Source of the DNA: Gammaproteobacteria bacterium
GTDB taxonomy: Bacteria; Pseudomonadota; Gammaproteobacteria; Xanthomonadales; SZUA-36
Direction of reading: 5' to 3'
NCBI GenBank assembly: GCA_024279945.1
Contig: JAJRRA010000080.1
Span: forward strand, 62,001 to 126,000
DNA length: 64,000 bases
The translations under genes were made by a program, and so were the position numbers. The notes under the pieces were generated by a model. It had not been told where the DNA came from, did no database searches, and saw nothing but the letters and a program-made list of their open reading frames with translations. Shown here in pieces: positions 20,329-62,810 of the stretch; position 1 is the first letter of the stretch, and every line of letters starts with the position of its first letter.

Positions 20329-20347
20329 GGATGCTCTTTAGCTCGCG

Positions 20348-21502: not shown

Positions 21503-21513
21503 ACCTGTACTGC

Positions 21514-23343: not shown

Positions 23344-23415
23344 GGTTTTTCCTCCGAGACGTCGTGTCGCGTAATATTTGAGACTATTCTTCGACGGTGT
23401 ATCAGTATGTCTATA

Positions 23416-23431: not shown

Positions 23432-23596
23432 AGAAATTTTCCAGGCTGATAATCAACTTTCAAACCGGAGGAGAATATTCTGCTGATCTTTAACTAAACT
23501 GATGTTTCCAAAAGCGAATATGATTATTCACGATCCATGATCCTGAAACTGCCAGAAAAACGGCCGGGGAATGGAGGCATTTTTTTCAGGACTTCA

Positions 23597-23616
23597 AAGT
23601 CGCCATTTGGTGACTT
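23597..23616. promoter_or_regulatory. Candidate upstream activator site
   Basis: AAGTCGCCA and TGGTGACTT form 9-nt inverted arms with one mismatch and a 2-nt spacer, about 170 bp upstream of the sigma-54 element, the usual distance for an enhancer-binding protein. A second candidate, TTGAT-N5-ATCAA, is at 23648-23662. Which one is bound, if either, is inference. Confidence 0.45.
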
Positions 23617-23651
23617 AGTGACTTTCGCCTGGCTGCCATGTGATGATTTGA

Positions 23652-30501: not shown

Positions 30502-30521
30502 AGGGCCTGTTTACAGGCCCT
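30502..30521. terminator. Convergent-gene hairpin
   Basis: AGGGCCTG (30502-30509), loop TTTA, CAGGCCCT (30514-30521): a perfect 8-bp stem between two convergent genes, touching the CoA ligase stop codon. There is no clear T run on either side, so it may be a bidirectional block or a 3'-end stabiliser. Confidence 0.55.
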
Positions 30522-36464: not shown

Positions 36465-37486
36465 TGAGACTCCCCCCTTTCCGTTTCCACGCGCCGGAAA
36501 CCCTCGAAGAAGCTGCCGCTATTCTGGCTGATAAAGGCTCCGATGCGATGATTCTGGCCGGCGGCACCGATCTGTTGCCGAACATGAAACGTGGACAGCA
36601 CACACCAAAGCATCTGCTGACCCTGCGCCGCATCTCGTCTTTGCGCGATGTGCGTAACGGTTCCGGACTCTCGATTGGAGCGGGCCTGACCCTGACTCAG
36701 TTGCTGAGTAATCAAACCATCCGCAAGGACTACACCGCCTTGTGGCAGGCCGCCAAAGTGGTTGCCACACCGCAGTTACGGAACATGGCGACGCTCGGTG
36801 GCAACATCTGCCTCGATACGCGCTGCAATTTCTATGACCAGAGCAAGGAATGGCGCAAAGCGATCAACTACTGCCTGAAGAAGGACGGCGACACCTGCTG
36901 GGTGGCAACCTCCAGCAAGACCTGCCTGGCGGTATCTTCAACCGATACCGCACCCGCACTGGTCGCGCTCGGCGCCCGAATCCGCCTGGTTTCAAGCGCT
37001 GGAGAACGCGTCATCAGGCTGGAAGACTTCTACAACAATGACGGCCTTGACTACCTGAACCGGCGCGCCGATGAAATCCTCAGCGAAGTCATCCTGGAAC
37101 CGGTTTCCGGCTGGAAAAGCACCTATTGGAAACTGCGCCGGCGAGGTTCTTTCGATTTTCCCGTCCTGGCGGTTGCAGTTGCGGTAAAATTCACGGATGA
37201 CGGTACGGTTGAAGATGCACGCATCGTACTGGGCGCCGTGGCGTCCATGCCGATGCTATCCACCGATGCTGCCGAGTTCCTGATCGGCAAAAAAATCGAC
37301 GACGAAGTCATCCGGGAGACCGGCCGTATCGCGGCAAAAATCGCCCGACCGGTCAACAATACCGACCTCGATCCGCCATGGCGTAAGAAAGTAATCCCTG
37401 AATTTATCAGGTATGCCTTACGCGAAGTACGCGGTGATGACATCAGTTCACTGCGGCAACGCGTTGCGCACCAGTCACGAAGCTGA
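36461..37486 (+). CDS. hcrB: 4-hydroxybenzoyl-CoA reductase, FAD and [4Fe-4S] subunit
   Basis: 341 residues. FAD-binding motifs ILAGGTDLLPNMK (about 31-43) and LRNMATLGGNI (about 106-116) are followed by an insertion of about 40 residues with cysteines at 117, 122, 138, 146 and 155. In the Thauera enzyme this insertion holds an extra [4Fe-4S] cluster that reverses the usual electron flow so that ferredoxin can drive dehydroxylation. Its presence is the strongest evidence that this operon encodes a reductase. Start overlaps hcrA. Confidence 0.92.
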   Translation: MMRLPPFRFHAPETLEEAAAILADKGSDAMILAGGTDLLPNMKRGQHTPKHLLTLRRISSLRDVRNGSGLSIGAGLTLTQLLSNQTIRKDYTALWQAAKVVATPQLRNMATLGGNICLDTRCNFYDQSKEWRKAINYCLKKDGDTCWVATSSKTCLAVSSTDTAPALVALGARIRLVSSAGERVIRLEDFYNNDGLDYLNRRADEILSEVILEPVSGWKSTYWKLRRRGSFDFPVLAVAVAVKFTDDGTVEDARIVLGAVASMPMLSTDAAEFLIGKKIDDEVIRETGRIAAKIARPVNNTDLDPPWRKKVIPEFIRYALREVRGDDISSLRQRVAHQSRS

Positions 37487-44148: not shown

Positions 44149-44802
44149 TCAGCTCAGTTCAAGCCGGCTCATCAGTCGCAGCAAGCTGCCGTCCGGGTCC
44201 TTCACATCAAACCAGTAACTCTGCATGCCAACGGCTTCGGCACCACTGCAGTTCGCGTGCAGGTCATCAATAAAAAGACACTGCTCCGGGGGCAGGGAAA
44301 GCATCCGCGCGCTGGCCAGATAGGGTTCTGGAGCCGGTTTTCTGACGCCGATCGTCTGCACATCCAAAATGGCGTCAAAGAGTCGACGATAGGGCCACGT
44401 TTCCCACCAGCGCTCGCCGAGCCACCGGCTGGCGTCATTGGTGAGCACCATCTGTCGAAAGCCCGCGACCTGCAGGCGCTCGATGGCTTCCCAGGTATTG
44501 GGGCGCTCACCAGTGCTGAAATCAAGGTCCTGGTAAGGTGAAAAAGTAATGCCCTCTTTTGCCAGCGCTGTGAGCAGTCGTTTCACATATTCCGATTCGT
44601 TAAACTCGCCCCGGTCCATGGCGGCGTAAGAGGGATCCGGCGCAGGCCCCGTCGGACCCAGCGGGATGTGTTCCAGCGGCCAGCCCTGCTCGATACCCAC
44701 ATCAAGCATCAACTCCGTGAAGAATCGATACATAATGCCACCCATGTCCCAGATGATGGCGCTGGGTAAGACGTAAACCGGGTTTCCCGTTGACAGCATC
44801 AT
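44149..44802 (-). CDS. HAD-superfamily hydrolase, subfamily IA, altered motif I
   Basis: 217 residues. Motif I reads IIWDMGGIMY: the nucleophile Asp (about residue 19) is kept but the second Asp, the general acid in DxD phosphatases, is Gly. Motif II VLTNDASRW, motif III lysine in GVRKPAPEPY and motif IV FIDDLHANCSGA are present. HAD-IA proteins with DxG in motif I are known (YihX and epoxide hydrolase N-terminal domain group). Last gene of the nine-gene operon, 8 bp after the SDR gene; it may dephosphorylate an intermediate. Confidence 0.8.
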   Translation of the reverse strand: MMLSTGNPVYVLPSAIIWDMGGIMYRFFTELMLDVGIEQGWPLEHIPLGPTGPAPDPSYAAMDRGEFNESEYVKRLLTALAKEGITFSPYQDLDFSTGERPNTWEAIERLQVAGFRQMVLTNDASRWLGERWWETWPYRRLFDAILDVQTIGVRKPAPEPYLASARMLSLPPEQCLFIDDLHANCSGAEAVGMQSYWFDVKDPDGSLLRLMSRLELS

Positions 44803-44810
44803 TTTTCCGC

Positions 44811-45569
44811 TCAGTTGAACTGGCGACCACCGTCTACGACGAGCGTTTGACCGGTGACGAAATCGCTGTCCGGCGCGGCAAAAAACAGCAATGCTCCGAT
44901 CAGGTCGTCAGCCTGTTGTGCCCGCTTGATCGCACCGCGATTCACGCCGTATTGCGCTGCTTCCTCAATCAGTTGCAGGCTGGCTTCGGTGAGCGTGAAG
45001 CCAGGAGCAATGGCATTGACGCGGATGCCGTAATCTCCAGCTTCCCGGGCCAGCGCCCGGGTAAGCCCGATCACGCCGCCTTTTGAAGCGACGTAATGAG
45101 CCCACAATGGTGAGCCGCTGTAGAATGTGGCTGATGTGATGTTGATGATGCTGCCACCACGTTCACGCATGAAGGGAAACACCGCACGCGCACAGAGCCA
45201 GGGGCCCTTGAGGTTAACTGCCATCAACTCGTCCCATTCACTGGAAGTGATCTCGAAGAACGGCTTGCGGGTGATGCCGCCATAAATACCGGCGTTGTTG
45301 ACCAGCACATCGATCCGCCCCCAGCGCTGCGCTACCGAGCCTGCCATCCGTTCTACCGAAGCTTCTTCAGCTACATCAAGCTCCATCTCGATTGCTTCAC
45401 CGCCCTGCGCGATGATCTGCTCAACCGTGCCGGCGGCACCGTCCAGCTTGCAATCAGCCACCACCACCCGCGCACCCGCAGCCGCCAGCGCCAGTGCAAA
45501 CGAGCGGCCCAGACCACCTCCGGCGCCCGTTACGATTGTCACCTGCCCGTTCAACTTTGTTTCAGACAT
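44811..45569 (-). CDS. Short-chain dehydrogenase/reductase
   Basis: 252 residues, classical SDR. Cofactor motif TGAGGGLGRS (about 15-24), NNAG (about 91-94), catalytic Ser in NITSATF (about 143) and YVASK with Tyr and Lys (about 158-162). The acidic residue after the second strand (VVADCKLDG) suggests NAD+ rather than NADP+. Substrate unknown; in this operon it could oxidise an alcohol to a ketone or aldehyde. Confidence 0.88.
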   Translation of the reverse strand: MSETKLNGQVTIVTGAGGGLGRSFALALAAAGARVVVADCKLDGAAGTVEQIIAQGGEAIEMELDVAEEASVERMAGSVAQRWGRIDVLVNNAGIYGGITRKPFFEITSSEWDELMAVNLKGPWLCARAVFPFMRERGGSIINITSATFYSGSPLWAHYVASKGGVIGLTRALAREAGDYGIRVNAIAPGFTLTEASLQLIEEAAQYGVNRGAIKRAQQADDLIGALLFFAAPDSDFVTGQTLVVDGGRQFN

Positions 45570-45617
45570 GATCCGCCTCAGTCACAGCAACAGGAGAGCA
45601 AACCGATTTGTGGTCTC

Positions 45618-47054
45618 TCATGATGCGGTTGATAAATAGATGGTCTTCAACTCCAGGTAGGCCTCCAGGCCATGACGTGATTTCTCACGTCCCAGCCCGC
45701 TTTCCTTGTAACCGCCGAAGGGCACCATATTGTATGAACGATGGATATTATTGACCCACACCGAGCCGGCCTCAAGGCTCTCGGCCGTACTGAGCGCCAC
45801 AGCCAAATCACTGCTGAAGACGTAGCCGGCCAGGCCGAACACCGAGTCGTTCGCCAACTCGATGGCCTGCGCCAGGGAATCGTAAGGCATAACGCCAACC
45901 ACGGGACCGAAGGTCTCTTCCCGCATGATCTTCATCGACTGTCGCGTGTCAGCAAGTACCGTAGGCGGAAAAAAGAAGCCACTATCATAGTCATCGCCAA
46001 GCAAGCGCTCTCCCCCGGTCGCAAGACGTGCACCCTGGGCAAGCGCATTTTCAACGTGTTCCACGCTGGTGCTGAATATTTTCTCACTGACCATCGGTCC
46101 CAGGTCACAATCCGGGTCCATGCCATTACCCACTTTGAGGGCGGCGGCTGCCCGTGCAAAACGTTCGATGAACTGCGGGTAGATTTCACGATCAACGTAA
46201 ATCCGGTTAACCCGGTAGCAGAATTGCCCGCTGTTGGCGAAGGAGTGCCGTACCAGCGCGGTCACTGCGGTATCGAGTTTGGCGTCACGGCAGACGATGG
46301 CGGGCGACTGCCCGCCCATCTCCAGCGTCAGCCGCTTGTTGGTCACCGCGGCCATTGCCGCGATGCGCTTACCTGCCCCACTGCTGCCGGTAAAGCCAAT
46401 TTTGCGCGGCACCGGATGTTCTACCAGTGCCCTGCCCAGCTCCGAACCGGAGCCGGTAATGGCATTGAACGCACCTGGCGGATAGCCTGCCTGATGAAAA
46501 AGCTCGGCCAACAGCAGCGTGGTCAGGGGCGTGTTGGAAGCCGGCTTGGCAACCACGGTACAACCAGTCATCAGGGCCGCGCCCAGTTTGAAGATGAGCA
46601 GCGTGATTGGATAGTTGAATGGCGTAATAGCCACCACCACGCCGAGGGGTTCCTTGACCACCAGAACCCGCTCGGACTCCTCGTTGATCATCGGAATCTC
46701 ACCGCGCAAGCGCAGACCCTCCTCGGCAAAGTAATCGAGCAGGTCGGCCGATCGTTCAATTTCGTTCTTCGAGCCGGCCAGCGGCCGGCCCAATTCGAGG
46801 GTCAGCAATTGCGCAAATTCATCGGCCCGCTCGCGCAAGCGCTGGGCAGCCGCGTGTTGCAGACTGGCGCGGCGAGCCATTGGAACCTTGCGCCAGAGTG
46901 CAAAAGCTTTTGCCGCCGAAACAATGGCCCGGTCGGCATCCCCGGCATTGCCTGACGGTACAGTCTCGAGTGTTTCACCCGTTGCAGGATTGGTGACCCT
47001 GATCAACTGCGACGATGTCGCCGGCGTCCAGTTGCCATCGATGAAAAAATCCAT
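45618..47054 (-). CDS. Aldehyde dehydrogenase family protein
   Basis: 478 residues, NAD(P)+-dependent aldehyde dehydrogenase near the succinate-semialdehyde dehydrogenase branch. TPFNYPITLLIFKLGAAL (about 148-165), the cofactor loop GFTGSSGAGKRI (about 222-233), active Glu in LEMGGQSPAIV (about 250) and active Cys in NSGQFCYRVNR (about 285). The EETFGPVVGV region is intact. Follows the split dikinase by 32 bp, so it probably turns an aldehyde of the same pathway into an acid. Confidence 0.9.
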   Translation of the reverse strand: MDFFIDGNWTPATSSQLIRVTNPATGETLETVPSGNAGDADRAIVSAAKAFALWRKVPMARRASLQHAAAQRLRERADEFAQLLTLELGRPLAGSKNEIERSADLLDYFAEEGLRLRGEIPMINEESERVLVVKEPLGVVVAITPFNYPITLLIFKLGAALMTGCTVVAKPASNTPLTTLLLAELFHQAGYPPGAFNAITGSGSELGRALVEHPVPRKIGFTGSSGAGKRIAAMAAVTNKRLTLEMGGQSPAIVCRDAKLDTAVTALVRHSFANSGQFCYRVNRIYVDREIYPQFIERFARAAAALKVGNGMDPDCDLGPMVSEKIFSTSVEHVENALAQGARLATGGERLLGDDYDSGFFFPPTVLADTRQSMKIMREETFGPVVGVMPYDSLAQAIELANDSVFGLAGYVFSSDLAVALSTAESLEAGSVWVNNIHRSYNMVPFGGYKESGLGREKSRHGLEAYLELKTIYLSTAS

Positions 47055-47086
47055 TATTTAACTCCCGACTTGTGGCTCAGACCGGA

Positions 47087-48124
47087 TCATCGGCGAAACA
47101 GTCTCGCCATCTGATCGACGATGTAATCGGCATCGGCCTCTTTCTGGCTGGCGCTGAACTTAGCCGGCCTTGCCTGCACCCAGATGATGTTTGCGGGGAA
47201 AGGAAGGTCGTTATCCACCACCCATTCCATATCCTGGGGCAGACCGAAGTGCTTCTCGACACCCAGCGCGATACGGACCAACTCAAGGATTTCCTCATCC
47301 TGCAGGCAGGGAAGCTCCTGCAAGTGGGTGGGCACATCGGCCTGAACCGTGCCATTGAGCGTCGAGATGACGTAGCGCTGCTTCGTGCTCAGTTTTTTTT
47401 CGATGGCCAGGCTGTCCTTGTTTACGATGAAGTTGTCCGGCGTAATATCACCGGCCACGACGCTCTCACCCAGGCCCCAGTTGCCCTCGATGACCACCTG
47501 ATCCTGGTCGCCGGTGGTCGGAACCACCGTGAGGAGCACACCGGCGCTGCGGGCATTGACCATCTGGATGACGGCGACGCCGATCGGCGCCTTGTCGACC
47601 GGCATCCCTTTTTCCAGGCGAAAAGCGATGGCCCGGGTATTGAACGTACTTTCCCATACCTCGAGGACGCGCCGTGTCACTTCCGCAGCACCCCGGACGT
47701 AGAGGTAGGTTTCCATCTGGCCGGGCATGCTGACCGAACCACTGGAGCGTACCGCCACCGGCAGGTCGGGCACACCGCAACGGGCGCATAGCGCCTCGTA
47801 GTTGCTCTCAATTTCAGCGGCAATATCCGCCGGAAGCGGGGTCTGTGCGATCAGGAGTTTCGCTGCCTGGCTGGCATCCATCTGCTTTTGAACACTGTCA
47901 CACAGGTCCTCGCCGAGGGATGCAAAGTAGGCTTCAATGCGTTCGCCCAGGCCCGTCACCTGCATGTATTGCTCAAAACCATCCACCGAAATGGCAAAAC
48001 CCGGCGGCACACGCATGCCAAGACGGGTCATTTCTCCGAGATTCGCACACTTCCTGCCAACCAGGTCGAAATGCTCCTGGCCAAGCTCCTCCATCGCATA
48101 AATCCACTTCTTTGCCATTACCAT
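47087..48124 (-). CDS. Second split dikinase: ATP-binding subunit (PpsB paralogue)
   Basis: 345 residues, the N-terminal ATP-grasp half of PEP synthase as a separate protein, like ppsB. VGRKCANLGEMTRLGMRVPP (about 22-41), VAVRSSGSVSMPGQM (about 122-136), GLGESVVAGDITPDNFIVNK (about 215-234) and the final IIWVQARPA are present. Two ATG codons (48124 and 48118) could start it; GGGAG lies before both. Distinct from the phenol operon copy, for example lacking TAEDLPGASFAGQQ. Confidence 0.85.
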   Translation of the reverse strand: MVMAKKWIYAMEELGQEHFDLVGRKCANLGEMTRLGMRVPPGFAISVDGFEQYMQVTGLGERIEAYFASLGEDLCDSVQKQMDASQAAKLLIAQTPLPADIAAEIESNYEALCARCGVPDLPVAVRSSGSVSMPGQMETYLYVRGAAEVTRRVLEVWESTFNTRAIAFRLEKGMPVDKAPIGVAVIQMVNARSAGVLLTVVPTTGDQDQVVIEGNWGLGESVVAGDITPDNFIVNKDSLAIEKKLSTKQRYVISTLNGTVQADVPTHLQELPCLQDEEILELVRIALGVEKHFGLPQDMEWVVDNDLPFPANIIWVQARPAKFSASQKEADADYIVDQMARLFRR

Positions 48125-48145
48125 TTGCTCCCGGATGAATTCAGA

Positions 48146-49855
48146 TTACTTGTCGAGGACATACAGGGCACCTATGTTGGCGTCCACACGGATCCTCTGG
48201 CCGGTCTTGATTTTCTCGGTTCCGACGAACACATTCATCAACACCGGAATACCGTATTCTCGCCCCACGATTGCGGCATGAGACAGCGAGGCGCCCCGGT
48301 CCATCACCACTCCGCTGATGAAGGAGAACACCGGTGTCCAACTCGGTGAGGTGGTTGCTGCGACCAGAATCTCGCCCGGCTGGATGTCGGCAAGCTGGTC
48401 CTCGTTCAGGATCACCCGCGCGAGACCTTCGACAACACCCGGAGAACCGCAGGTACCGTGCAGATCGGCGTTGAGCTCTTCTCTAACCACCGGCATGGCT
48501 CCAACCACCACTTTCAGGGCAATCGGGTCATTCGACTTCACCAGCATGGCCATCGCCTGGTCCATGTCGAAGCCTTCTCTGAGGATGGCTGGAGGATTCG
48601 GCTCCTTGCACCACTCCAGCCATTCTGCACGCCTGGCTTCCACGCTGGGGCGCAGATTGTAGTGATCCGGGTTGATGGCCACTTTGCGGATCTCCTCCGG
48701 GATGAGAAAGAAAATGTCATCGAGCGTGTCGATGGTGCCGGCACTGACCAGGCGCCGACTGATGCCCAGCGCAGAGCGGCGCATCATGGCGTGGGTGTAG
48801 AGATCCAGGTAGTGGTCGTGCTCCTCACTGAATGCGCCCGACTTCTGTGCCAGCCGCAGGATCGTTGTGAACCAGCCCTTTTGCTCAGGTGCAATCTTCG
48901 CAAACACTTCCTTCTCGGCAGCTTCACGTTCCCGGCTGATCTTTTCACGCTCCTGCTCGAGGTTGAAACCACCCCCTTTCACCAGGAACTGCTTGAGGTT
49001 GGTCAACGGAGGAGTGGGGTCCTCGATCCAGGTAGGCTGATTCATCTCGGACATGCGCTGCATGCGCCAGCCGTCCTCGTCGAGGAACTCACGAAACTCC
49101 GCCATGAAAGCGGGGCCCTTCTCCGCAGCCTCGATATTGCTCTCAATGTCGGCCGGCTCGCTGGCCAGAATGATGTCCGCCAGTCCAAGCTGCGCCGCCT
49201 TCTGGGAAAACTCCCAGATTCGCTTGTCCACCTGGAGTACTTTATTGTCGAAGCCGGAAATGAGCTTGTGAAAAAGCGGATGTGTGTCGTCGATGCCGAT
49301 CAACTCACGGCACAGATTCTCAAACAGGATGTAGCCGGTGTAGGTGCCGTACATCATGTACATGTGAACTTCCCACATGCGCCGGCAGACATTGACCGTT
49401 TGCTCAAAATTATCCAGCAGTTCGATGTTGGTCGCCCGATCCAGATCGACTTTCTTCAAATCTTCGTACAAGCCCAGTATCTCGTCCAACTGGCTGTGCC
49501 AGAGGCCATCGTAATCCTCAATGAAGGGCCGGATGGCCACCCGAAAACGATCTTCACGCTGGCGTTGCTCTTCCTCGGACTTGACCAGCATGACCGTCAG
49601 GTAGCCACCACCGTTCCTGAATCGCCAGTCCCACCCTTTCACGGTCGGCAGAGAGAGCTTTTCTGCTCCGTACTGCATGCCGTGACGGCAAAAGTTGATC
49701 CAGAACCAGCCAAACAGAGGGGTCCAGGGCGGAACCGAATGGGTTGCATCAAGGAACCAGGCAGGGGACTGTTCCAGGTCGGCTTTCTCGTCAAATTCGA
49801 AACCCGTAACCGGGGGCAACATCGTTGTCGTCTGAGTGACGGTGGCAGTGGTCAT
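48146..49855 (-). CDS. Second split dikinase: substrate and phosphohistidine subunit (PpsA paralogue)
   Basis: 569 residues from ATG 49855, which has an AGGAGG site. The C-terminal swivel domain contains LVAATTSPSWTPVFSFISGV (about 491-510) and the catalytic His in GASLSHAAIVGREYG (His about 526). The first 430 residues form the substrate-recognition part, alpha-helical, with FGWFWINFCRHGMQYGAEKL near 48-67, and differ much from PpsA. The phosphoryl acceptor is therefore unknown. No UbiD, LpdD or CBS gene accompanies it. Confidence 0.83.
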   Translation of the reverse strand: MTTATVTQTTTMLPPVTGFEFDEKADLEQSPAWFLDATHSVPPWTPLFGWFWINFCRHGMQYGAEKLSLPTVKGWDWRFRNGGGYLTVMLVKSEEEQRQREDRFRVAIRPFIEDYDGLWHSQLDEILGLYEDLKKVDLDRATNIELLDNFEQTVNVCRRMWEVHMYMMYGTYTGYILFENLCRELIGIDDTHPLFHKLISGFDNKVLQVDKRIWEFSQKAAQLGLADIILASEPADIESNIEAAEKGPAFMAEFREFLDEDGWRMQRMSEMNQPTWIEDPTPPLTNLKQFLVKGGGFNLEQEREKISREREAAEKEVFAKIAPEQKGWFTTILRLAQKSGAFSEEHDHYLDLYTHAMMRRSALGISRRLVSAGTIDTLDDIFFLIPEEIRKVAINPDHYNLRPSVEARRAEWLEWCKEPNPPAILREGFDMDQAMAMLVKSNDPIALKVVVGAMPVVREELNADLHGTCGSPGVVEGLARVILNEDQLADIQPGEILVAATTSPSWTPVFSFISGVVMDRGASLSHAAIVGREYGIPVLMNVFVGTEKIKTGQRIRVDANIGALYVLDK

Positions 49856-49892
49856 TGTCTTCCTCCTTTTGTCCTTTTCGTACAAATATTCT

Positions 49893-51980
49893 TTACCGGG
49901 TCAGCACGGTTTCGGGGTCAATCAGGGTTGCTGACGCGACGATTTCCGCGATGTCCATTACCTGTGTGCCCCCTTGCGGGTGGCGCACGGTAAGGCCATC
50001 CTTGAGCATGGTGGCGCAGAAGGGGCAAGCAGTGGCAACGATTCCGGCGCCGGTAGCGTTCACCTGGTCTGCACGTGCATGACTGATACGCCCGCCGGCA
50101 ATTTCCTGGGTCCAGTTCCTGCCGCCGCCGGCGCCGCAGCAGAAGCTTTGCTCGCGTTTGCGCTCCATCTCCACCAGTTCCACGCCAGGGATCGCTGTCA
50201 ACACCTCGCGCGGTGCATCGTATTCGCCGTTGTAGCGGCCAAGATAGCAGGAATCGTGAAATGTCAGCAATCCGTCCACCCTGCCCTCAATTTGCAGGCA
50301 TTTGCTGCGCAGCAGGTCACGAATCAATTCACTGTGGTGGACGACCTCGTAATTGCCACCCAGTTGAGGGTATTCGTTCTTGAGTGAGTTAAAACAGTGG
50401 GCGCAACCGGTGACGATGGTGTCAAACTTATACCTGGAAAGTGTCTCCATGGTGCGTTGAGCACAGCTCATAAAAAGGACTTCATCACCGATCCTGCGGG
50501 CCGCATCGCCGGTGCACGACTCTTCGTCGCCGAGGATGGCGAAATCTACGCCCGCCCGCCCGAGCACGGTCGCAATTGCGCGTGCGACCTGCTGGCCACG
50601 CTCGTCAAAGCTCGAAGCGCATCCAACCCAGTAGAGGTATTCAGCCTGGCCCTTGTCGGCCATGCGTGGGACATCCAGTCCCTTTGTCCAGGCGGTTCGG
50701 GATACGCTGATTCCCTGGTAAGGTGTTCCACGCGTTTCGAGATTGGCCAGTGTTGACTGCAGTTGCTGCGGATAATTCGCCGTCTCCATCACCAGATGAC
50801 GCCGCATGTCGACGATCATGGGCACCTGCTCGACTCCGACAGGACACGCTTCCACACAAGCCCCGCAGGTCACGCAGGACCACAGCGCTTCGGGTGAGAC
50901 AGCATTGATCATCGCAGGAAGGCCGGCTGTTACCAGGGGCCGGTCAGCGTCTGCCGGCAGATTCACCGGAGCACGCGGAGCGAGGCCACGCGCATGGTCG
51001 CGCAGGTCCAGAATCAGTGCCTTGGGCGAAAGTGGCTGACCGGCGGCAAAGGCCGGGCACATTTCCTGACAGCGCCCACATTCAGTGCAGCTCTCCAGGT
51101 CGAGCGCCTGCTTCCAGCTCAGCTCCCCGGGCGCACTTGCGCCAAGGGCTGCCTCTTCATCATCAAAGTCAATCGCCTGGAGCGCACGATCTCCGGGCCT
51201 GAAGTCCAGTGGAGAGAAAAAGATATTAAAGGGTGCGGTAATGACGTGCAGCAGCTTGGTGTAGGGAATCGCCGCAATGAGTCCGCAGGCCAGGACAAGA
51301 TGGAACCACCACAGTCCGGCGTGCCACTGCTGGAGCGAAACATCGCCCACCCCGGTGCTTCGCAGCAGCGTGCCAACGGTGAAACCAACCGGCGACCAGT
51401 GGGCCCAGGGATCACCGGTGACCGCAATGCGGATCCCCTCCAGCACGAACCCGGTCAGCAACAGGATCAGGAGCACCAGCGGAATCGCCGCGTCAACAAG
51501 GGGCCGCGACCGGTCGCCAGGCTGCCGCAGACGGTTGGCCCGGGTGACGTAACGGCGCCACAACAGAACCGTCAGACCGGCAATGGCCACGAGGCCGGCC
51601 AGATCGAGGGTCAGCGACTGAAACCACAGGTAGAACGTACCGCGCATCACCGGGATACCGAAATCCTCCTCAAGCATCACCACCAGGGTGCCGATGAAAA
51701 GCAGGACAAAGCCCCACGAGAGACCAAGGTGCGCCAGGCCGGCGCTACGCTCCCGCAGCAATCGGCGTTGTGCGAGCGCCTGCGCTGCAACTTGACGGAA
51801 CCTGCGCGCAATGACATCGAAGCGCTCAATTCGGGTGACTTTCCGCCAGCGCCGGAAGATCCGGTAAACGCCGTAAGTGAACACGATCAGTGCAATCGCC
51901 AGCACCAGATACAGAAACTCCCTGCCGTTGATGTTCCAGTAAGCAGGGCGTGTTATCAGGTTCATCGCATCGGTGAGCAC
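49893..51980 (-). CDS. Membrane ETF:quinone-type Fe-S oxidoreductase (EMO/HdrD-like)
   Basis: 695 residues from a GTG at 51980 that overlaps the etfA stop (an ATG at 51965 is the alternative). N-terminal half: six or so membrane helices of the NarI-like cytochrome b type with histidines in AHLGLSWGF and QWHAGLWWFHLV. C-terminal half: two [4Fe-4S] motifs, CTECGRCQEMCP and CVTCGACVEACP, then two CCG domains ending in FHDSCYLG and SFCCGAGGGRNW. Such proteins pass electrons from ETF to the quinone pool. Adjacent to etfAB, which supports the role. Confidence 0.85.
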   Translation of the reverse strand: MLTDAMNLITRPAYWNINGREFLYLVLAIALIVFTYGVYRIFRRWRKVTRIERFDVIARRFRQVAAQALAQRRLLRERSAGLAHLGLSWGFVLLFIGTLVVMLEEDFGIPVMRGTFYLWFQSLTLDLAGLVAIAGLTVLLWRRYVTRANRLRQPGDRSRPLVDAAIPLVLLILLLTGFVLEGIRIAVTGDPWAHWSPVGFTVGTLLRSTGVGDVSLQQWHAGLWWFHLVLACGLIAAIPYTKLLHVITAPFNIFFSPLDFRPGDRALQAIDFDDEEAALGASAPGELSWKQALDLESCTECGRCQEMCPAFAAGQPLSPKALILDLRDHARGLAPRAPVNLPADADRPLVTAGLPAMINAVSPEALWSCVTCGACVEACPVGVEQVPMIVDMRRHLVMETANYPQQLQSTLANLETRGTPYQGISVSRTAWTKGLDVPRMADKGQAEYLYWVGCASSFDERGQQVARAIATVLGRAGVDFAILGDEESCTGDAARRIGDEVLFMSCAQRTMETLSRYKFDTIVTGCAHCFNSLKNEYPQLGGNYEVVHHSELIRDLLRSKCLQIEGRVDGLLTFHDSCYLGRYNGEYDAPREVLTAIPGVELVEMERKREQSFCCGAGGGRNWTQEIAGGRISHARADQVNATGAGIVATACPFCATMLKDGLTVRHPQGGTQVMDIAEIVASATLIDPETVLTR

Positions 51981-52981
51981 TAAGCGCTGCTCTTCCCCGC
52001 TTGCAGCTTCTCTTTCAGCGCATCGTACAGGCCCGGCAACACTTCCTTCCAGTCACCTACAACACCGTAGTTAGCCAGATGGAAGAATGGCGCTGTCTTG
52101 TCGATGTTGACCACTGCAATGGCCTGGGCCGAGGAACAACCGGCCAGGTGCTGGCTCGCTCCCGAAATACCAACGGCGAGGTAAAGGTCGGGCGCAACGG
52201 TCTTTCCGGTAAGCCCCACCTGCAACGCAGTCGGCACCCACCCGGAATCGCAAACGACCCGCGAGGCCGAAACTGCCCCGCCCATCAGTCCGGCAATTTC
52301 CTCAAGCAGGCCGGTGAAGGGTTCAGGACCACCGATCCCCGCACCACCGGAAACCAGCACAGGGGCCCGCTCGATGTTTTTCCCGGTGCCACTCTCATGC
52401 CGCGTCCGTGCACCACAGTGCGTCTGCCGCGGGCCTGGTAAAACCAGCTCATAATGATGCATCAGTGATACAGCAGCTTGCTGTGGCTGTGCAGCTTCAA
52501 ATGCCCGTGGCCGTGGCACGATGACCCAGGGTCCCTGCCGGGCTTTCACAGTTGCCGCGACCGCACCACCAAATACCGGGCGTACCGCCGTGATACCTTG
52601 TGGCCCATTTTCCACCTGGGTCACATCCTGCAGGAGTGACCAGCCCATCTGGATCGCCAGCCGTGCCGCCGTCTCAACACCCAACGGGGTTCGCGGCAAC
52701 AGCACCACCTTGGGTTTGATTGCACCGCACAAGGCCGCGAGCGCTGCGCTGTTACCTTCGGGCCAGGGATCCGCAAGACGCTCGTCCTCGAACACATGAA
52801 CCTCGGCCGCCTCTGCATGGCTCAGTGCTTCGAGCACGCTGTCGAGTTGCCAGCCGGCCAGTGCGACATGAACTGCCTCGCCGTCCGTAGCAGCCAGTTT
52901 GGTGGCCACGGTCATCAATTCCCAGAACTCGGGCCGCAACTCACCGTTGTCCGGTTCTGCGAAAACGAGAATACCCGGCAT
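51980..52981 (-). CDS. etfA: Electron transfer flavoprotein alpha subunit
   Basis: 333 residues from ATG 52981, which has an AGGAG site; the longer frame to 53182 overlaps etfB and is rejected. N-terminal domain ILVFAEPDNGEL; C-terminal FAD-binding region with APVLVSGGAGIGGPEPF, VGLTGKTVAPDLYLAVGISGASQH (two blocks, about 260-285) and IAVVNIDKTAPFFHLANYGVVGD. With EtfB it carries electrons from a dehydrogenase to the membrane protein encoded downstream. Confidence 0.93.
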   Translation of the reverse strand: MPGILVFAEPDNGELRPEFWELMTVATKLAATDGEAVHVALAGWQLDSVLEALSHAEAAEVHVFEDERLADPWPEGNSAALAALCGAIKPKVVLLPRTPLGVETAARLAIQMGWSLLQDVTQVENGPQGITAVRPVFGGAVAATVKARQGPWVIVPRPRAFEAAQPQQAAVSLMHHYELVLPGPRQTHCGARTRHESGTGKNIERAPVLVSGGAGIGGPEPFTGLLEEIAGLMGGAVSASRVVCDSGWVPTALQVGLTGKTVAPDLYLAVGISGASQHLAGCSSAQAIAVVNIDKTAPFFHLANYGVVGDWKEVLPGLYDALKEKLQAGKSSA

Positions 52982-53006
52982 GGCTAGTGCTCCTTTTGAA
53001 AGTACA

Positions 53007-53816
53007 CTAGGCACCTCCCTCAGCTCGTATGATGCCGTCTTCCCACAGCAAATCGGCGAGTTTCCGCCCTGCTGCCGCACCATCGACGGCTTCGATAAAG
53101 TGACACTCGCGCCCAACAGAAGGAATGGCGAGATCGACAATGTCGATCTGCGGAGCAGGTGCCGCAGCGATACCCAGTTCATCCAGTGTCATCTGCCGCG
53201 GCTGAATGCGCGCCGTTGCCAGGCGGGCACGTGCCGTGGGCATACGCAAGGGGCCCAGTTCACTGGTCACGGTGACAACGGCGGGCAATTCGCTCCACAT
53301 CATCTGGCTGCCATCCGGCAGCACCCGCTCAATCTCGATACGCTGCTCCGTTACGGTAAGTTTCCGGGCCAGCGTGAGGCACGGCATTTCCAGTGCATGG
53401 GCAAGCATCAGGGGCACGAATGCATTGTCCCAGTCCGAGGCCTGGCGTCCGCACAGAACCAGGTCTACCGCACCAATTTTTGCGATTGCGGCAGCCAGAA
53501 CGGTGGCCAGGTACCAGCCATCCCAGGTATCCAGGGAAGGATCCCGCACCAGCACCAACTGGTCGGCGCCAACGGCGAGTGCACGTTTCATGACATCGGT
53601 ATTGAAGTTTTCGCCCAGCGAGAGGGCAATGATCTCCAGTTGCCCCCGTTCTTCCTTCAAACGCAGCGCGGCTTCCAGGGCCTGCTCGTCGTAACCGTTG
53701 ATCACCGGTGGGCCGGCCACGGCCTGGCGAACCGTTTTCGCCTCGGCATCCAGGGTCAGGTCGGTGGCCGGTGTCAGTGGGTCAACGACCTGCTTGAGAC
53801 AGACGACTGCGCGCAT
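53007..53816 (-). CDS. etfB: Electron transfer flavoprotein beta subunit
   Basis: 269 residues from ATG 53816, with GGAGG 5 bp before it. Starts MRAVVCLKQVVDP; the AMP-binding signature region is around NGYDEQALEAALRLKEE (about 41-57), ALAVGADQLVLVRDP and LVLCGRQASDWDNAFV. Second gene of the operon, 19 bp after the FAD oxidoreductase gene and 25 bp before etfA. Confidence 0.94.
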   Translation of the reverse strand: MRAVVCLKQVVDPLTPATDLTLDAEAKTVRQAVAGPPVINGYDEQALEAALRLKEERGQLEIIALSLGENFNTDVMKRALAVGADQLVLVRDPSLDTWDGWYLATVLAAAIAKIGAVDLVLCGRQASDWDNAFVPLMLAHALEMPCLTLARKLTVTEQRIEIERVLPDGSQMMWSELPAVVTVTSELGPLRMPTARARLATARIQPRQMTLDELGIAAAPAPQIDIVDLAIPSVGRECHFIEAVDGAAAGRKLADLLWEDGIIRAEGGA

Positions 53817-53835
53817 ATACCCTCCGGTGGCCGCT

Positions 53836-55497
53836 TCAGAAATCGCGATTGGCCATTTCCCAGAAGCGTGGCAATCCACGATCCTCGGCGATGACTTTGT
53901 ATGCGATGTAACCGCTGCCGCGACCGATGCCCGCAGCGGAGTGCAGATTGGACGAGCACTGATACAGGTTCTTGATCGGACTGCGATAGCTCGCCAGTTC
54001 AGGGAAGGGACGGAAGCGCCCGAGTTGGGATGCGATCATAGAACCTTCGGTCCAGCCGCCTTCTATCATGTCAGGATGTCCTGACTGAACATCATAGGGG
54101 CTGTAGATACGCGTTGCGATGATGTTGTCGCGCGTCATGTTTGGTGCGTAGGTTTCCCACTTATCCAGCCACTGATTGACGAAGTCCTCCTTGATCCGTG
54201 TCCACTCCGTGCCGGAAAAGAAACGGGCCGGCGCGGTGAAGTCTTCGATCAGAACCGTGTTTTTACCTTCTGGGGCACGGGTGCGGTCCCAGATGCTGTC
54301 GGGCGCCGTGAGCACATACAATTGCTGCGGGTAACCCAGTAAAAAGATGTCGTGCTGGTATTTGGAGGCGAAATAATCCGGATCCTTGGCGCCGGTGTAC
54401 AAACGCGGTTGTATGCCGACACCCGGGTTGAGGTGTTCCGCCTTGTACTCGGGCAGTTCATGCATCGCCACATTGCCCCAGAGGATCTGGCCGCGGTCGT
54501 AGTGGATGTTATTCAGGCGGTGGAGAATCCGGTCCGAGATGGTCTCGTCACGCAACAGGCGCAGATAGGTCTGCGGCATGCCCAGATCGGAAACCACGAT
54601 GGTGGAGTGGAAGTGGCTGCCGTCGCTCAATTCGACACCGGTTGCCTTGCCACCCTCGACGATGATCTTGTCCACGTTGTGCCCGGTAAAATATTTCACA
54701 CCCAGTTTCTTGCCGGCTGAAACCAGTGCGTCCGTAATCGACTGTGTGCCACCCTTGACGATCGCAGCGGGCTCAAAGGAAAGCACCAGCCCCATGGCAT
54801 GAACCAGTGTCATCAGGCCGCCCGGGTCGTCCGGGAAACAACCGCCCGAAGTGGGGGTCGCGCGCATAAACAGGGTGCGCAGTTCTGGACTCTCAAAGAA
54901 ATCGTAGGCGATTTGCCGGATCGACATGAACTGGTGAACCGGTTCAACCCCGCTGTCGGGAATCGCCATCAGTTCCTCCAGCGCATCCGGTATCGGCCAT
55001 TGGGGCGGTTCAGTGAACCGATGCTTGTGGAAAGCGGCCTTCCAGTACTTGTTGTACTGATCGAACAGGCGCAGGTACATGTCGGCATCGCGTTGCGAGA
55101 AAGCCTTGATCTGCTCATAAGTCTTCTGCACATTATCCGGCGCAAGCTCGGTACGACCGGTGATCGGGTCCACAACGCGGTAAGCCGAATAACCGATAAA
55201 ACTGGAGCCGTCATCGAAGATCATACCTTCGTTCTGCTCGGGGAAAACGTATTCGAGCCCCTCTTCCCGAAGATTGAAATCCTCGTAAGCAGGATGACCG
55301 TAGAAACGGGTGAAATGCGCACAGGGATTTTGCCGGAAGCCGGGTGCCGGCCCCTCCTCGCTGATTGCTCCGCCACCGAAAGCCGTGTGTCTTTCAAGTA
55401 CGGCCACGCTCATGCCGGCCTTGGCCAGATAACAGGCCATGATGGTTCCGTGATGCCCGCCCCCAATGACGATTGCATCGTATTTCGCATCAGACAT
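53836..55497 (-). CDS. Phytoene-desaturase-like FAD oxidoreductase
   Basis: 553 residues from ATG 55497, with GAGGAG before it; the longer frame is not supported. Dinucleotide motif AIVIGGGHHGTIMACYLAKAG (in two blocks, about 8-28) followed by VLERHTAFGGGAISEE; a C-terminal flavin motif LYQCSSNLHSAAGIGRGSGY (in two parts). The family includes carotenoid and retinoid desaturases and saturases. Being first in an operon with ETF suggests it dehydrogenates a hydrophobic substrate and hands electrons to ETF. No classical acyl-CoA dehydrogenase is present. Confidence 0.82.
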   Translation of the reverse strand: MSDAKYDAIVIGGGHHGTIMACYLAKAGMSVAVLERHTAFGGGAISEEGPAPGFRQNPCAHFTRFYGHPAYEDFNLREEGLEYVFPEQNEGMIFDDGSSFIGYSAYRVVDPITGRTELAPDNVQKTYEQIKAFSQRDADMYLRLFDQYNKYWKAAFHKHRFTEPPQWPIPDALEELMAIPDSGVEPVHQFMSIRQIAYDFFESPELRTLFMRATPTSGGCFPDDPGGLMTLVHAMGLVLSFEPAAIVKGGTQSITDALVSAGKKLGVKYFTGHNVDKIIVEGGKATGVELSDGSHFHSTIVVSDLGMPQTYLRLLRDETISDRILHRLNNIHYDRGQILWGNVAMHELPEYKAEHLNPGVGIQPRLYTGAKDPDYFASKYQHDIFLLGYPQQLYVLTAPDSIWDRTRAPEGKNTVLIEDFTAPARFFSGTEWTRIKEDFVNQWLDKWETYAPNMTRDNIIATRIYSPYDVQSGHPDMIEGGWTEGSMIASQLGRFRPFPELASYRSPIKNLYQCSSNLHSAAGIGRGSGYIAYKVIAEDRGLPRFWEMANRDF

Positions 55498-55578
55498 TAT
55501 TCTTTCTCCTCGATCCGGATGTTCCTGATTTCCGGTCGAGGTTAGCAAGGCCATCCTTCGCCTGTCAAGCATTTTTCT

Positions 55579-55600
55579 AACAGTTGTTCGATTTTTCGAA
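55579..55600. promoter_or_regulatory. Candidate TetR operator in divergent promoter
   Basis: AACAGTTGTTC-G-ATTTTTCGAA; within it TTCGA-TTTT-TCGAA is a perfect palindrome (55587-55600). The motif is shared with 32762-32782. It lies in the 122-bp region between the FAD oxidoreductase start (55497) and the TetR gene (55620), positioned to control both. Confidence 0.62.
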
Positions 55601-55619: not shown

Positions 55620-56252
55620 ATGGATCAGGATCTGAATAAGCATTCCAACGAGACTCGCGGCATGAACCGGCGCGAACGCAAGCGCGAAGAAGCCTGCCTG
55701 GATATTCTCGGCGCGGCGACTCAGGTATTCCGGGAACGCGGATTCGCCGGCGCGGGTATGCGGGAAATTGCTGCGGCCGCCGGTCTTTCCGCTGCAACGC
55801 TTTACTACTATTTCCATTCCAAGGATGAAATTCTCTACTTCTGCCAGGATCGAACCCTGGACCGCACACTCGATGCGCTGCAACTGGCGCGCAAAACCCG
55901 GGGCCCGGTAGCCGAAAGAATGATGACTCTGGCAATGACCCACGTGCTGTGCCTGATCGAGGGCGTTGAAGGCACTGCCGCCCATTTCGAAGTCGACCCG
56001 GTGACTCCGGGATTGCGCGAGGCGATCACCGCCAAGCGTGAACGCTACAAGGACGGTATTTGCGCGCTCATTGCACTGGGTATCCGCAGAAAGGAGTTCC
56101 GGCGATGCAAGCCGAAGTTCGCCATGCGCGGCTTCCTCGGCGCCCTCAACTGGACGCCACACTGGTATCAGCCTGACGGACCCGACTCAGTGCAGGAGGT
56201 GGCCCGTCACATAGCGGAATACGCTGTTGCGGGCCTGCTGAAGCGTGGCTGA
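55620..56252 (+). CDS. TetR-family regulator (second dikinase operon)
   Basis: 210 residues from the ATG at 55620; the frame extends back to a TTG at 55584, but that lies inside the palindromic operator. HTH at about 30-70 (FRERGFAGAGMREIAAAAGL, LYYYFHSKDEILYFCQD). Paralogue of the TetR at 32706. Divergent from the nine-gene operon, so it probably represses it; the C-terminal ligand domain gives no clue to the effector. Confidence 0.88.
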   Translation: MDQDLNKHSNETRGMNRRERKREEACLDILGAATQVFRERGFAGAGMREIAAAAGLSAATLYYYFHSKDEILYFCQDRTLDRTLDALQLARKTRGPVAERMMTLAMTHVLCLIEGVEGTAAHFEVDPVTPGLREAITAKRERYKDGICALIALGIRRKEFRRCKPKFAMRGFLGALNWTPHWYQPDGPDSVQEVARHIAEYAVAGLLKRG

Positions 56253-59825: not shown

Positions 59826-62810
59826 CTATTTCCCAAATAAATCCTTCGGATCCGGCGCCTGTCTGCCCTGCGCTTTCCTTCTCGCATAGGGTTTGGAGGG
59901 TTTGCCTTCCTGCCAGTAGCCTTTGGCCTGTTCCTTTTCGCCCGCTTTTTCCCGTCGCTGTTTCTCCTTGATCGCGCGGAGAATCTTTTCGGATGTGATC
60001 GGCAGTTCGGTAAACCAGATGCCGGTTGCGGTGGATATGGCGTGAGCCACAGCACCCAGAACCGGCAGGGTGGCGCCTTCACCGATTTCCTTGGCTCCAT
60101 AGGGCCCTTCGGGCTCATAGGAATCCACCAGCCCGCTGAATATTTCCGGGGCGTCCTTGATGGTCAGTTGGAGATACTCATGCAAACTGGGATTGATTAT
60201 CCTGCCCTTGTCGTCAAAGACCGTATCTTCCATGATGGTCTCACCGGCACTCATGACAATGGCCCCTTCCACCTGTCCATGGACCGCCATGGGGTTAATG
60301 GGTGTGCCGCAATCGTGGTAGTCATAAAATTTTTCCAGGTCTACCTTACCGGTCTCCAGATCCACTGAAACCTCGCATACCGCGCTGCCGAAAGAATACG
60401 CCGGGCTGGTGCCGACCGCGGCCCCCTTGTAATCGCCCCCCAGCCCTTCCGGTGGTTTGTAATTTCCGGTTCCCACCAGGGGCCCATTGTCACTGAAATA
60501 CATCCGGGCCGCCTCCGCCCAGTCCATGCCGTTCTCTTCATCTTCCAGCCGGAAAATTCGCCCATTTTTTGCGCCTAGTTCATCCTCGGAGCAGCCAAGG
60601 ATTTCAGCCGCGTACGGTTTGAGCTTGGCGAGCACGTCCTGACCGGCGCGGGAAACCGCGTTACCACCCATCAGCGTGATGCGGGATGAATAAGCCCCGA
60701 GATCGATGGGGCTGATGTCGGAATCCTCCGTTCTGATCCTTACCCGGTCCAGCGGAATACCCAATCCTTCGGCACACATTTGCGACAAAACGGTATCCGA
60801 CCCCTGGCCGATATCTGCGGCGCCGATGAACAACACGGCAGCCATACCGTCCTCCAGTATCTTCACCACCGCATTGGAGTGGGGAAAAACCGGTTTCTTG
60901 AGGAATGTCTTGGGGGTCTTTTCATGGCTCAGGCGCACCTCACCCCGGTAGATGGCATAACCCGCTCCCGAGACAAAGCCGCCGGAGCCTATCCCTATAC
61001 CCTTGCCTGGGGGCAGTTTCCCGTACTTCCCGTCCCACTGTGACCGTTCCCGGACCTTTTCCAGTGTTGCCTTGTATTCACAGCTTCGAATATCCAGGTC
61101 GTTGCAGGTTCGTGTATTGCGGTCCATGCCGTTTTTCAGGCGAATCTCCACCGGATCCATGCCGATCCCATCGGCCACCATGTTCAGCAACATCTCAAAA
61201 GCAAAACGGGGTTGTGGAACGCCGTGACCGCGCATGGCGCCACACGCGGGTTTATTGGTGAACATCCGGTAGCCCGAATACTTGTAATTGGGAAAATGGT
61301 ACAGCGTGGGTATCATGCTGCCGGCGTAGTAGGCAGTGATGACACCAAACGAAGAATAAGCCCCGCCATCGAGCAGAATGTAACTGTCAAACGCGGTGAT
61401 CGTTCCATCCTTTTTGACCCCGAGTTTGAACTTCATGTGTTGCTTGTGCCGGCCCCGGCCGTGATAGAACATCTCCTTGCGGGTATAGATCATCTTGACC
61501 GGCCTGCCGATCCGGCGGGCAAATATCGCCGCGCACAGGTCCAGTGGCGTGGTCTCCGCTTTGCCCCCAAAACCTCCGCCAACTGCCGGTTTCATGATTT
61601 TGATCCTGCCCAGTGGAATTTCCAGTACGTGGGCCATCATGTAATGCACGTAGTGGGGAACCTGGGTTGAGGTATACAGCACCAGGGTTCCGTCGTTCTC
61701 CCAATGGGCTATAGAGGCATGGGGTTCCATCGGGCTTTGGTAGATGTGGTTGCCGACAAACGTTTCCTCAACGATATAATCAGCTTCCGCAAAACCCTGG
61801 GCAACATCACCAAATTCGTGTTCAACTTTGGTGTTGATGTTGTTCTTGAAGCGGGGGTGGTCATGCAACTGGATCGCCCCCTCGGCAATGGCGTCCTGGG
61901 GATTGAATACCGCGGGATACTCTTCGTATTCCACCTCAATCAAGGCAATGGCCCGGGTGGCGGTTTCCTCATCAACCGCTGCTACGGCCGCAAGCTCGTC
62001 TCCGACATAGCGCACGATTCCCTTGGAAAGCACGTGTTCGTCATAGCGGGCGGGTGATACACCGTAACGTACATCCGGAACATCATCGCCGGTGATGACA
62101 TCCAGCACACCGGGAAGCGCCCTGGCTCGCGATGTGTCGATGGACAGGATCTTGCCGTGAGCGATCGTGCTGCCCAGTATCTTGCCGTAAATCATGTTGG
62201 GCAGTTCGATATCGGCGGTATAGTGCGTACGTCCCGTCACCTTGTCCCGGGCATCAACCCGGGGCAGGCTGCGACCGACAACGGCATGCTGGTCGAGATC
62301 GTCGTGGTTGTCCGCGCCCAGATCCGGATCCGCCGCGTATTTTTCCACTTTCTCAACCGCCCGCTTGATGGCGGTATAACCGGTGCACCGGCACATGTTT
62401 CCGGCCAGGGCTTCTTCTATCTCCTCTGCGGTAGGATTTTCATTGGAATCCAGCAGTGCCTGGGCATTGATCATCATGCCGGGAGTGCAATAGCCGCACT
62501 GGATTGCACCCTCGTTTACAAAAGACCGTTGTAACGGGGAAAGTTCACCGTTTTTCGCCAGACCCTCAATCGTTATCAGCTTGCAGCCAACGGCGGATAC
62601 TGCCAGGATCAGGCAACTGTTGATGGGTTCACCGTCCAGCATGACCGAACAGGCGCCGCAATCACCGACATCGCAACCCTTCTTGGTTCCGGTGAGACGT
62701 ATCTTGTCCCTGAGCACATCCAGCAGTGTTTCATTTTGCTTTACCGAGACATTGTATGTCTGGCCGTTGACATCGAGTTGGATGTTTTTATAGCTGGTGG
62801 AGTTACTCAT
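59826..62810 (-). CDS. Molybdenum hydroxylase: fused [2Fe-2S] and Mo-cofactor subunit
   Basis: 994 residues from ATG 62810, preceded by GGGAGG. Residues 1-160: two-cluster [2Fe-2S] domain (GCDVGDCGACSVML, QCGYCTPGM, NMCRCTGYT). Residues 175-940: xanthine-oxidase-type Mo domain with AVGGGFGGKAETTP, DLGAYSSRITLMGGNAV and the late GAKEIGEGATLP with the conserved Glu. The last 50 residues are very basic. Related to the Hcr subunits but fused in one chain. Oxidises or reduces an aromatic or N-heterocyclic substrate; which is unknown. Confidence 0.85.
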   Translation of the reverse strand: MSNSTSYKNIQLDVNGQTYNVSVKQNETLLDVLRDKIRLTGTKKGCDVGDCGACSVMLDGEPINSCLILAVSAVGCKLITIEGLAKNGELSPLQRSFVNEGAIQCGYCTPGMMINAQALLDSNENPTAEEIEEALAGNMCRCTGYTAIKRAVEKVEKYAADPDLGADNHDDLDQHAVVGRSLPRVDARDKVTGRTHYTADIELPNMIYGKILGSTIAHGKILSIDTSRARALPGVLDVITGDDVPDVRYGVSPARYDEHVLSKGIVRYVGDELAAVAAVDEETATRAIALIEVEYEEYPAVFNPQDAIAEGAIQLHDHPRFKNNINTKVEHEFGDVAQGFAEADYIVEETFVGNHIYQSPMEPHASIAHWENDGTLVLYTSTQVPHYVHYMMAHVLEIPLGRIKIMKPAVGGGFGGKAETTPLDLCAAIFARRIGRPVKMIYTRKEMFYHGRGRHKQHMKFKLGVKKDGTITAFDSYILLDGGAYSSFGVITAYYAGSMIPTLYHFPNYKYSGYRMFTNKPACGAMRGHGVPQPRFAFEMLLNMVADGIGMDPVEIRLKNGMDRNTRTCNDLDIRSCEYKATLEKVRERSQWDGKYGKLPPGKGIGIGSGGFVSGAGYAIYRGEVRLSHEKTPKTFLKKPVFPHSNAVVKILEDGMAAVLFIGAADIGQGSDTVLSQMCAEGLGIPLDRVRIRTEDSDISPIDLGAYSSRITLMGGNAVSRAGQDVLAKLKPYAAEILGCSEDELGAKNGRIFRLEDEENGMDWAEAARMYFSDNGPLVGTGNYKPPEGLGGDYKGAAVGTSPAYSFGSAVCEVSVDLETGKVDLEKFYDYHDCGTPINPMAVHGQVEGAIVMSAGETIMEDTVFDDKGRIINPSLHEYLQLTIKDAPEIFSGLVDSYEPEGPYGAKEIGEGATLPVLGAVAHAISTATGIWFTELPITSEKILRAIKEKQRREKAGEKEQAKGYWQEGKPSKPYARRKAQGRQAPDPKDLFGK

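Follow-up and report, generated by a model that had tools for sequence, protein, structure and literature searches.

Operon layout

A nine-gene operon was analysed in a 64,000-nucleotide stretch of the genome of a Gammaproteobacteria bacterium (assembly GCA_024279945.1, contig JAJRRA010000080.1), referred to as the window. The operon (44149-55497, minus strand) would probably encode a version of the cre (4-cresol) pathway that needs no oxygen, a reading that we hold with somewhat more confidence than doubt. An earlier sequence-only reading had placed nine genes in the order given below (from the flavoprotein to the HAD hydrolase) on one strand, with intergenic gaps of 8-48 bp and a divergent TetR gene, and all of this was confirmed on the sequence. 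The features are:

53836-55497, minus: flavoprotein of the phytoene-desaturase-like superfamily, 553 aa, start MSDAKYD, GFRQNP-C-A at the covalent-flavin site
53007-53816, minus: EtfB, electron-transfer flavoprotein (ETF) beta subunit
51980-52981, minus: EtfA, ETF alpha subunit
49893-51965 (or 51980), minus: membrane Fe-S/cysteine-rich-domain (CCG) protein with NarI-like N-terminus (Pfam), proposed EtfD/EMO-type ETF:quinone oxidoreductase
48146-49855, minus: PpsA2 (PpsA-like), substrate-binding and phosphohistidine-swivel component of a two-component dikinase, with a rifampin-phosphotransferase-like fold and invariant His526
47087-48118, minus: PpsB2 (PpsB-like), ATP-grasp component of the dikinase
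45618-47054, minus: aldehyde dehydrogenase (ALDH), proposed for the CreC-equivalent step
44811-45569, minus: short-chain dehydrogenase/reductase (SDR), 53-54% identical to the CreG proteins (4-hydroxybenzyl alcohol dehydrogenases) encoded in two cre-type operons
44149-44802, minus: HAD hydrolase, proposed aryl-phosphate phosphatase for the same step as the HD protein CreD
55620-56252, plus: TetR-family regulator (TetR_N and TetR_C_24), divergent from the operon

The 699-aa open reading frame of the flavoprotein was over-long, and its start was refined to 55497. The TetR and flavoprotein starts are 122 bp apart on opposite strands; an inverted-repeat operator was looked for in this intergenic region and none was found. 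The absence of UbiD, UbiX, CBS protein and acyl-CoA dehydrogenase noted earlier holds within the operon, but UbiD, UbiX and a CBS protein all occur elsewhere in the window, some 20 kb off, as parts of a complete phenylphosphate (phenol) cluster.

Distribution of related loci

A single scan of 84,980 species genomes was done with the window flavoprotein as query. This search, in line with the earlier proposal to look for the same gene order in other genomes, yielded 17 loci whose flavoprotein is 54-79% identical. Every one comes from a metagenome-assembled genome, and the phyla are Pseudomonadota, Actinomycetota, Chloroflexota, Bacillota and Thermodesulfobacteriota. The recurrence of this gene set across five phyla shows that the arrangement exceeds chance. 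Flavoprotein and SDR form the constant pair, and the split dikinase goes with them in nearly all cases; a kinase lies within the locus or elsewhere in the genome. Type I loci (the window, L025-L033 and L041) have EtfBA after the flavoprotein and mostly also the membrane Fe-S protein. Type II loci (L034-L037, L039 and L040) are without ETF and carry a second flavoprotein (~28% identical) immediately upstream. In L038 just the flavoprotein and SDR genes are found, adjoining a kinase of phenol type.

The spread is patchy: the set was found in one of six genomes of one genus, and PpsA2 in one other genome among 398 of the window's phylum. Such occurrence fits an accessory pathway, as expected. A search for close flavoprotein relatives on plasmids and in 369 evenly sampled genomes of the class gave none above ~32% identity. 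True phenylphosphate synthase (PpsA1) was present in 11 of 16 operon genomes and in 3 of 397 background genomes (Fisher p 1e-15), the background being drawn from the window's phylum only and matched to the operon genomes in neither phylum nor habitat. A 220-aa protein of two similar halves, with no Pfam match, follows the kinase genes at L032:19400-20059 and has homologues in L026, L027, L030, L039 and L040.

Two-component kinase

PpsB2 is an ATP-grasp domain resembling PEP synthase and rifampin phosphotransferase (RPH). The catalytic His526 of PpsA2 lies in DRGASLSHAA and is invariant in 12 sequences. The PpsA2 model matched RPH over 487 residues (Z 24.1, root-mean-square deviation 4.2), and an RPH-like fold has been reported for HpeH (PMC12167813). 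The two-component architecture, the catalytic His and the RPH-like substrate and swivel domains are common to PpsAB of Thauera and Azoarcus and to HpeHI (hydroxyphenylethanone kinase). The window differs from these systems in that its operon has no carboxylase, true PpsA1 and PpsB1 are encoded elsewhere in the window, and PpsA2 belongs to a deep, separate clade.

That clade stands apart from PpsA, CreH and the actinobacterial phenol kinases (100/99 support; 24-26% identity), so that the protein earlier called PpsA-like is no close paralogue of PpsA. Window PpsA2 falls outside the CreH/PpsA/HpeH clade; only in L033 and L038 does the kinase at the locus belong to it. These are the loci of the two flavoprotein-bearing genomes without PpsA2 (G760/L033 and G765/L038), where a phenol-kinase-clade PpsA lies beside the flavoprotein gene; the L033 kinase is joined to CreH (92/74) within a clade supported at 96/100. 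At L037:4564-7077 residues 1-441 of PpsA2 run on in one frame into an aldehyde ferredoxin oxidoreductase (AOR) and the swivel domain is lost; this is either a fusion through deletion or an assembly error.

Flavoprotein and proposed electron-transfer chain

The window flavoprotein carries the motif GFRQNPCA, with Cys where the flavin-binding His stands in the consensus of CtmAB and delta-24-steroid desaturase (G-F-L/R-x-N/S-T/L-H-A; PMC11061730). The site is conserved among the FAD proteins as GF-x-x-N-x-[H/C]-[A/S]. Sister flavoproteins have His in 6 cases (preceded by Pro) and Cys in 10, and GF-[IL]-H-[NS]-THA is found in 6/6 second subunits from type II loci. Cys near this position also occurs in some more distant superfamily members. 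A Cys-linked flavin in the window protein is possible, as judged from the motif.

CtmAB (Castellaniella defragrans) and delta-24-steroid desaturase (Sterolibacterium denitrificans), compared through their published consensus, belong to the same superfamily and have the site G-F-x-x-N/S-x-H-A. Limonene dehydrogenase CtmAB is a heterodimer (PMC4109377), and the two tandem flavin subunits of the six type II loci recall both it and the heterodimeric desaturase. The window operon differs in having one flavin subunit together with ETF and the Fe-S protein, Cys at the site, and an associated dikinase. Three homologues elsewhere in the genome (G000) were checked as a possible second subunit, and none had the flavinylation motif. 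The AlphaFold model of the flavoprotein was weak (pLDDT 62), and its match to gamma-carotenoid desaturase (Z 21.6) is therefore supportive only; from the match list a closer family can be neither seen nor excluded. We propose that the flavoprotein may be an O2-independent benzylic hydroxylase/dehydrogenase of an aryl phosphate.

The membrane Fe-S protein has a NarI-like membrane domain, 4Fe-4S motifs and CCG domains (Pfam), and matches a solved iron-sulfur-binding reductase (PDB 9ojn, E 7e-111), which we take to be EtfD. EMO and mycobacterial EtfD (ETF:(methyl)menaquinone oxidoreductases) likewise combine a NarI-like membrane part with 4Fe-4S and CCG domains and are encoded next to etfBA. Unlike them, the window protein would serve a flavoprotein that is no acyl-CoA dehydrogenase.

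Two groups of candidates were rejected. Gmet_0231/0232 of Geobacter (benzene to phenol) are a zinc oxidoreductase and a hypothetical protein, and are unrelated. The 'Magic' and BzS1 benzene flavoproteins belong to a different family of PCMH/glycolate-oxidase type.

Comparison with the cre pathway

In the aerobic cre pathway of Corynebacterium glutamicum 4-cresol is phosphorylated and its methyl group is then oxidised, by the kinase CreHI, the P450 CreJ with CreEF, and CreG, CreC and CreD. CreEF consume NAD(P)H. According to PMC7764795, C. glutamicum creC-creJ encode an aldehyde dehydrogenase, a phosphohydrolase, two P450 partners, 4-hydroxybenzyl alcohol dehydrogenase, two 4-methylbenzyl phosphate synthase subunits and a P450. 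Two Rhodococcus plasmid operons have the creC-J order (P450, CreI, CreH, SDR, ferredoxin, ferredoxin reductase, HD, ALDH), and both adjoin toluene-4-monooxygenase genes. The CreG proteins of these operons gave the window SDR its two highest bit scores among the matches listed from 72,556 plasmid records. In the SDR tree CreG falls among the operon SDRs, a placement that is compatible with the relationship and not decisive.

The operon shares with the cre pathway a split dikinase, an SDR, an ALDH, a phosphatase and the phosphorylation-first logic. It differs in the oxidising module: P450, ferredoxin and ferredoxin reductase in the cre pathway, and in the operon a dehydrogenase of covalent-flavin type together with ETF and an EtfD-like protein. 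Neither P450 nor ferredoxin reductase was found among the nine window genes, and a search of the operon loci for CreJ homologues (E up to 1e-4) gave none. The operon kinase is only ~25% identical to CreH, and the window HAD replaces the CreD-type HD phosphohydrolase, which is not in the window operon. CreD-like HD proteins are present in four sister loci, all of type II (L036, L037, L039 and L040; 30-36% identity, E 1e-22 to 1e-30). Aldehyde oxidation varies in the same way, with ALDH in seven loci (window, L025, L027, L030, L032, L033 and L041), a Mo aldehyde oxidoreductase of Desulfovibrio type (E 8e-182 to 1sij) in L039 and L040, and AOR-family proteins in L034, L036 and L037. The phosphatase and aldehyde-oxidising steps are thus kept across the loci through unrelated enzymes. 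HAD relatives also lie near phenol-kinase genes in Actinomycetota, where 6 of 7 genome-wide matches (E up to 1e-8) in four genomes were within ~6 kb of a kinase; this shows specificity and not frequency, because the four genomes were picked for a HAD match near a kinase.

Proposed pathway

We infer every reaction, the substrate and the order of phosphatase, SDR and ALDH from these comparisons. PpsA2/PpsB2 would phosphorylate the hydroxyl of an alkylphenol, cresol being the probable substrate, to give an aryl phosphate (step 1). The flavoprotein, in place of CreJ, would abstract a hydride, or two hydrogens, at the benzylic position, and addition of water would follow (step 2). Electrons would pass from the flavoprotein to EtfBA, the EtfD/EMO-like membrane Fe-S protein and quinone, in place of CreEF (step 3). 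HAD would strip the phosphate (CreD step), SDR would oxidise the benzylic alcohol (CreG step) and ALDH would oxidise the aldehyde to hydroxybenzoate (CreC step). CoA ligation, reductive dehydroxylation and benzoyl-CoA reduction could follow, in keeping with a benzoate-CoA ligase family protein, 4-hydroxybenzoyl-CoA-reductase-type enzymes and a benzoyl-CoA reductase in the genome. For the wider claim we see evenly balanced chances: the route would be anaerobic, widespread and undescribed, with a flavin enzyme, whose flavin may be Cys-linked, using water to hydroxylate a phosphorylated phenol at its benzylic position, passing electrons via ETF to quinone and acting with a new clade of two-component phenol dikinases.

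Comparative genomics supports well the outline drawn in the sequence-only reading (phosphorylation, electrons from flavoprotein to ETF and quinone, SDR and ALDH oxidation, HAD as phosphatase). Its statement that it knew of no described pathway with this set calls for correction, as the operon matches the aerobic cre pathway, which that reading did not name, step for step, with the P450/ferredoxin module swapped for a CtmAB/delta-24-desaturase-type flavoprotein and ETF. It had left the substrate as a different alcohol or phenol; a phenolic one is favoured, though not proven, and a different alcohol is less favoured. An open-access literature search, with subscription papers mostly outside its reach, found no description of this gene set. 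As far as could be checked, the phosphorylation-first logic (cre) and the flavoenzyme family (CtmAB/delta-24-desaturase) are known already and their combination is new, and side-chain oxidation of phosphorylated alkylphenols has been described only with oxygen (P450).

Several points weigh against an oxygen-independent cre counterpart. Other SDRs also nest in the operon-SDR/CreG clade, which limits the support from the SDR; the window ALDH is just ~38-39% identical to CreC; and the HAD and HD phosphatases are unrelated. The substrate of PpsA2 could differ from those of PpsA and CreH, since its clade is deep and separate and its identity to both is ~25%. The 3/397 figure comes from a single phylum of unmatched habitat. 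The closest characterised flavoproteins attack allylic carbons and not benzylic aryl phosphates. p-Cresol methylhydroxylase needs a free para-hydroxyl to form a quinone methide, and because O-phosphorylation removes that hydroxyl, step 2 needs different chemistry. The main chemical uncertainty is the mechanism of this step with the phenolic oxygen blocked; it would have to involve hydride or radical chemistry of the sort put forward for CtmAB or delta-24-steroid desaturase (PMC11061730).

The alternative that survives best, though we consider it unlikely, keeps the phosphorylation-first logic with a lignin-type ethyl- or propylphenol as substrate; the benzylic CH2 would be oxidised and the SDR would make a ketone, e.g. 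phospho-4-hydroxyacetophenone. It draws on L038, where the flavoprotein and SDR genes follow a phenol-kinase-clade gene near biotin-carboxylase, biotin-carrier and carboxyltransferase-like genes resembling HpeCBA, with no ALDH seen (the HpeHI pathway is described in PMC9618137). A ketone route needs no ALDH, yet ALDH or another aldehyde oxidoreductase is present in 12 of 18 loci including the window.

It is more doubtful that the kinase acts on a tertiary or allylic aliphatic alcohol of a terpenoid or steroid side chain, with the phosphate eliminated and the new allylic carbon hydroxylated by the flavoprotein, as in anaerobic cholesterol and limonene degradation. The resemblance of the window flavoprotein to CtmAB and delta-24-steroid desaturase at the flavinylation site would suit such a route, as would the distinctness of PpsA2 from known phenol kinases, and kinase-then-lyase logic is known for 25-hydroxysteroids (PMC8449060). 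However, the 25-hydroxysteroid kinase is a 40-kDa monomeric phosphotransferase and no split dikinase (PMC8449060), and was ruled out as a homologue. The CreG-like SDR, the CreD-like HD proteins, the phenol-type kinases that stand in for PpsA2 in two genomes, the co-occurring phenylphosphate synthase and the neighbouring aromatic-acid genes also speak against this reading. Least probable is that the nine genes are not one pathway, the dikinase serving a separate phenol route and the FAD/ETF set an unrelated dehydrogenation: in L036 and L037 some kilobases separate the FAD genes from the kinase genes upstream, and the kinases of L033 and L038 come from another clade, but the spacing is tight and co-directional and FAD protein, SDR and kinase recur over five phyla.

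If true, the cre-like, oxygen-independent pathway would add an O2-free activation of benzylic C-H bonds spread over five phyla, and would provide a candidate pathway, in anoxic water and sediment, for cresols and for alkylphenols of lignin type. It would also widen the reach of the small CtmAB/delta-24-desaturase family, bringing in aryl phosphates and the use of ETF to accept the electrons, and establish small-molecule dikinases of a new clade.

Window surroundings and further loci

Outside the operon the window is, by its predicted genes, an aromatic-acid island. The features are:

15663-24725, minus: separate phenol cluster of UbiX, CBS protein, UPF0261, UbiD, PpsB1, PpsA1 and DUF120-HAD fusion
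30520-32109, minus: benzoate-CoA ligase family protein, above the subfamily cut-off, possible downstream ligase
33439-37486, plus: three-subunit 4-hydroxybenzoyl-CoA-reductase-type Mo enzyme (best model, below equivalog cut-off), possible downstream step
59826-63687, minus: another Mo enzyme of 4-hydroxybenzoyl-CoA-reductase type, across the operon from the first, with Fe-S fused to its large subunit

UbiD of the phenol cluster scored above the phenylphosphate-carboxylase-beta cut-off, PpsB1 is 62.5% identical to Azoarcus PpsB, and PpsA1 falls in the Azoarcus PpsA clade of the tree. The best model for the large subunit of the second Mo enzyme was 4-hydroxybenzoyl-CoA reductase, below the equivalog cut-off, and its separate FAD subunit was best to XdhB, below that cut-off. 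A class I benzoyl-CoA reductase subunit (BcrB) is encoded elsewhere in the same genome (G000:C65:61213). Alongside it the genome has BoxB/BoxC of the oxygen-using benzoyl-CoA pathway, just past the window (L044, contig C83, 126001-140000).

HAD phosphatase domains are fused to phenol-pathway proteins as DUF120-HAD (window 23652-24725) and as HAD-PpsB (L033:4292-6238, Chloroflexi contig). The UPF0261 (Tm-1-like) protein of the window phenol cluster (17350-18600), function unassigned, has counterparts adjoining the flavoprotein/kinase operon in six loci (L026, L028, L034, L035, L039 and L040) and near a PEP-utilizing enzyme in Thermomicrobium (L123). In a Solirubrobacterales genome (L038:1-11353) acetovanillone (hpe) biotin-carboxylase-like genes adjoin the kinase-flavoprotein-SDR operon, and this gene order suggests a link from alkylphenol to hydroxyacetophenone.

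Actinomycetota clusters L105, L106, L109 and L114 combine a phenol kinase and HAD, found by search, with a Rieske-type oxygenase, two VOC-type dioxygenase-like proteins and a phosphoglycerate-mutase-like protein, judged from sequence appearance; they apparently represent a further phosphorylation-first pathway. Small proteins that look like bacterial-microcompartment shell proteins lie beside a phenol-type kinase at L109:13911-14861 and L115:6015-6919, and their appearance suggests an encapsulated phosphorylation-first aromatic pathway.

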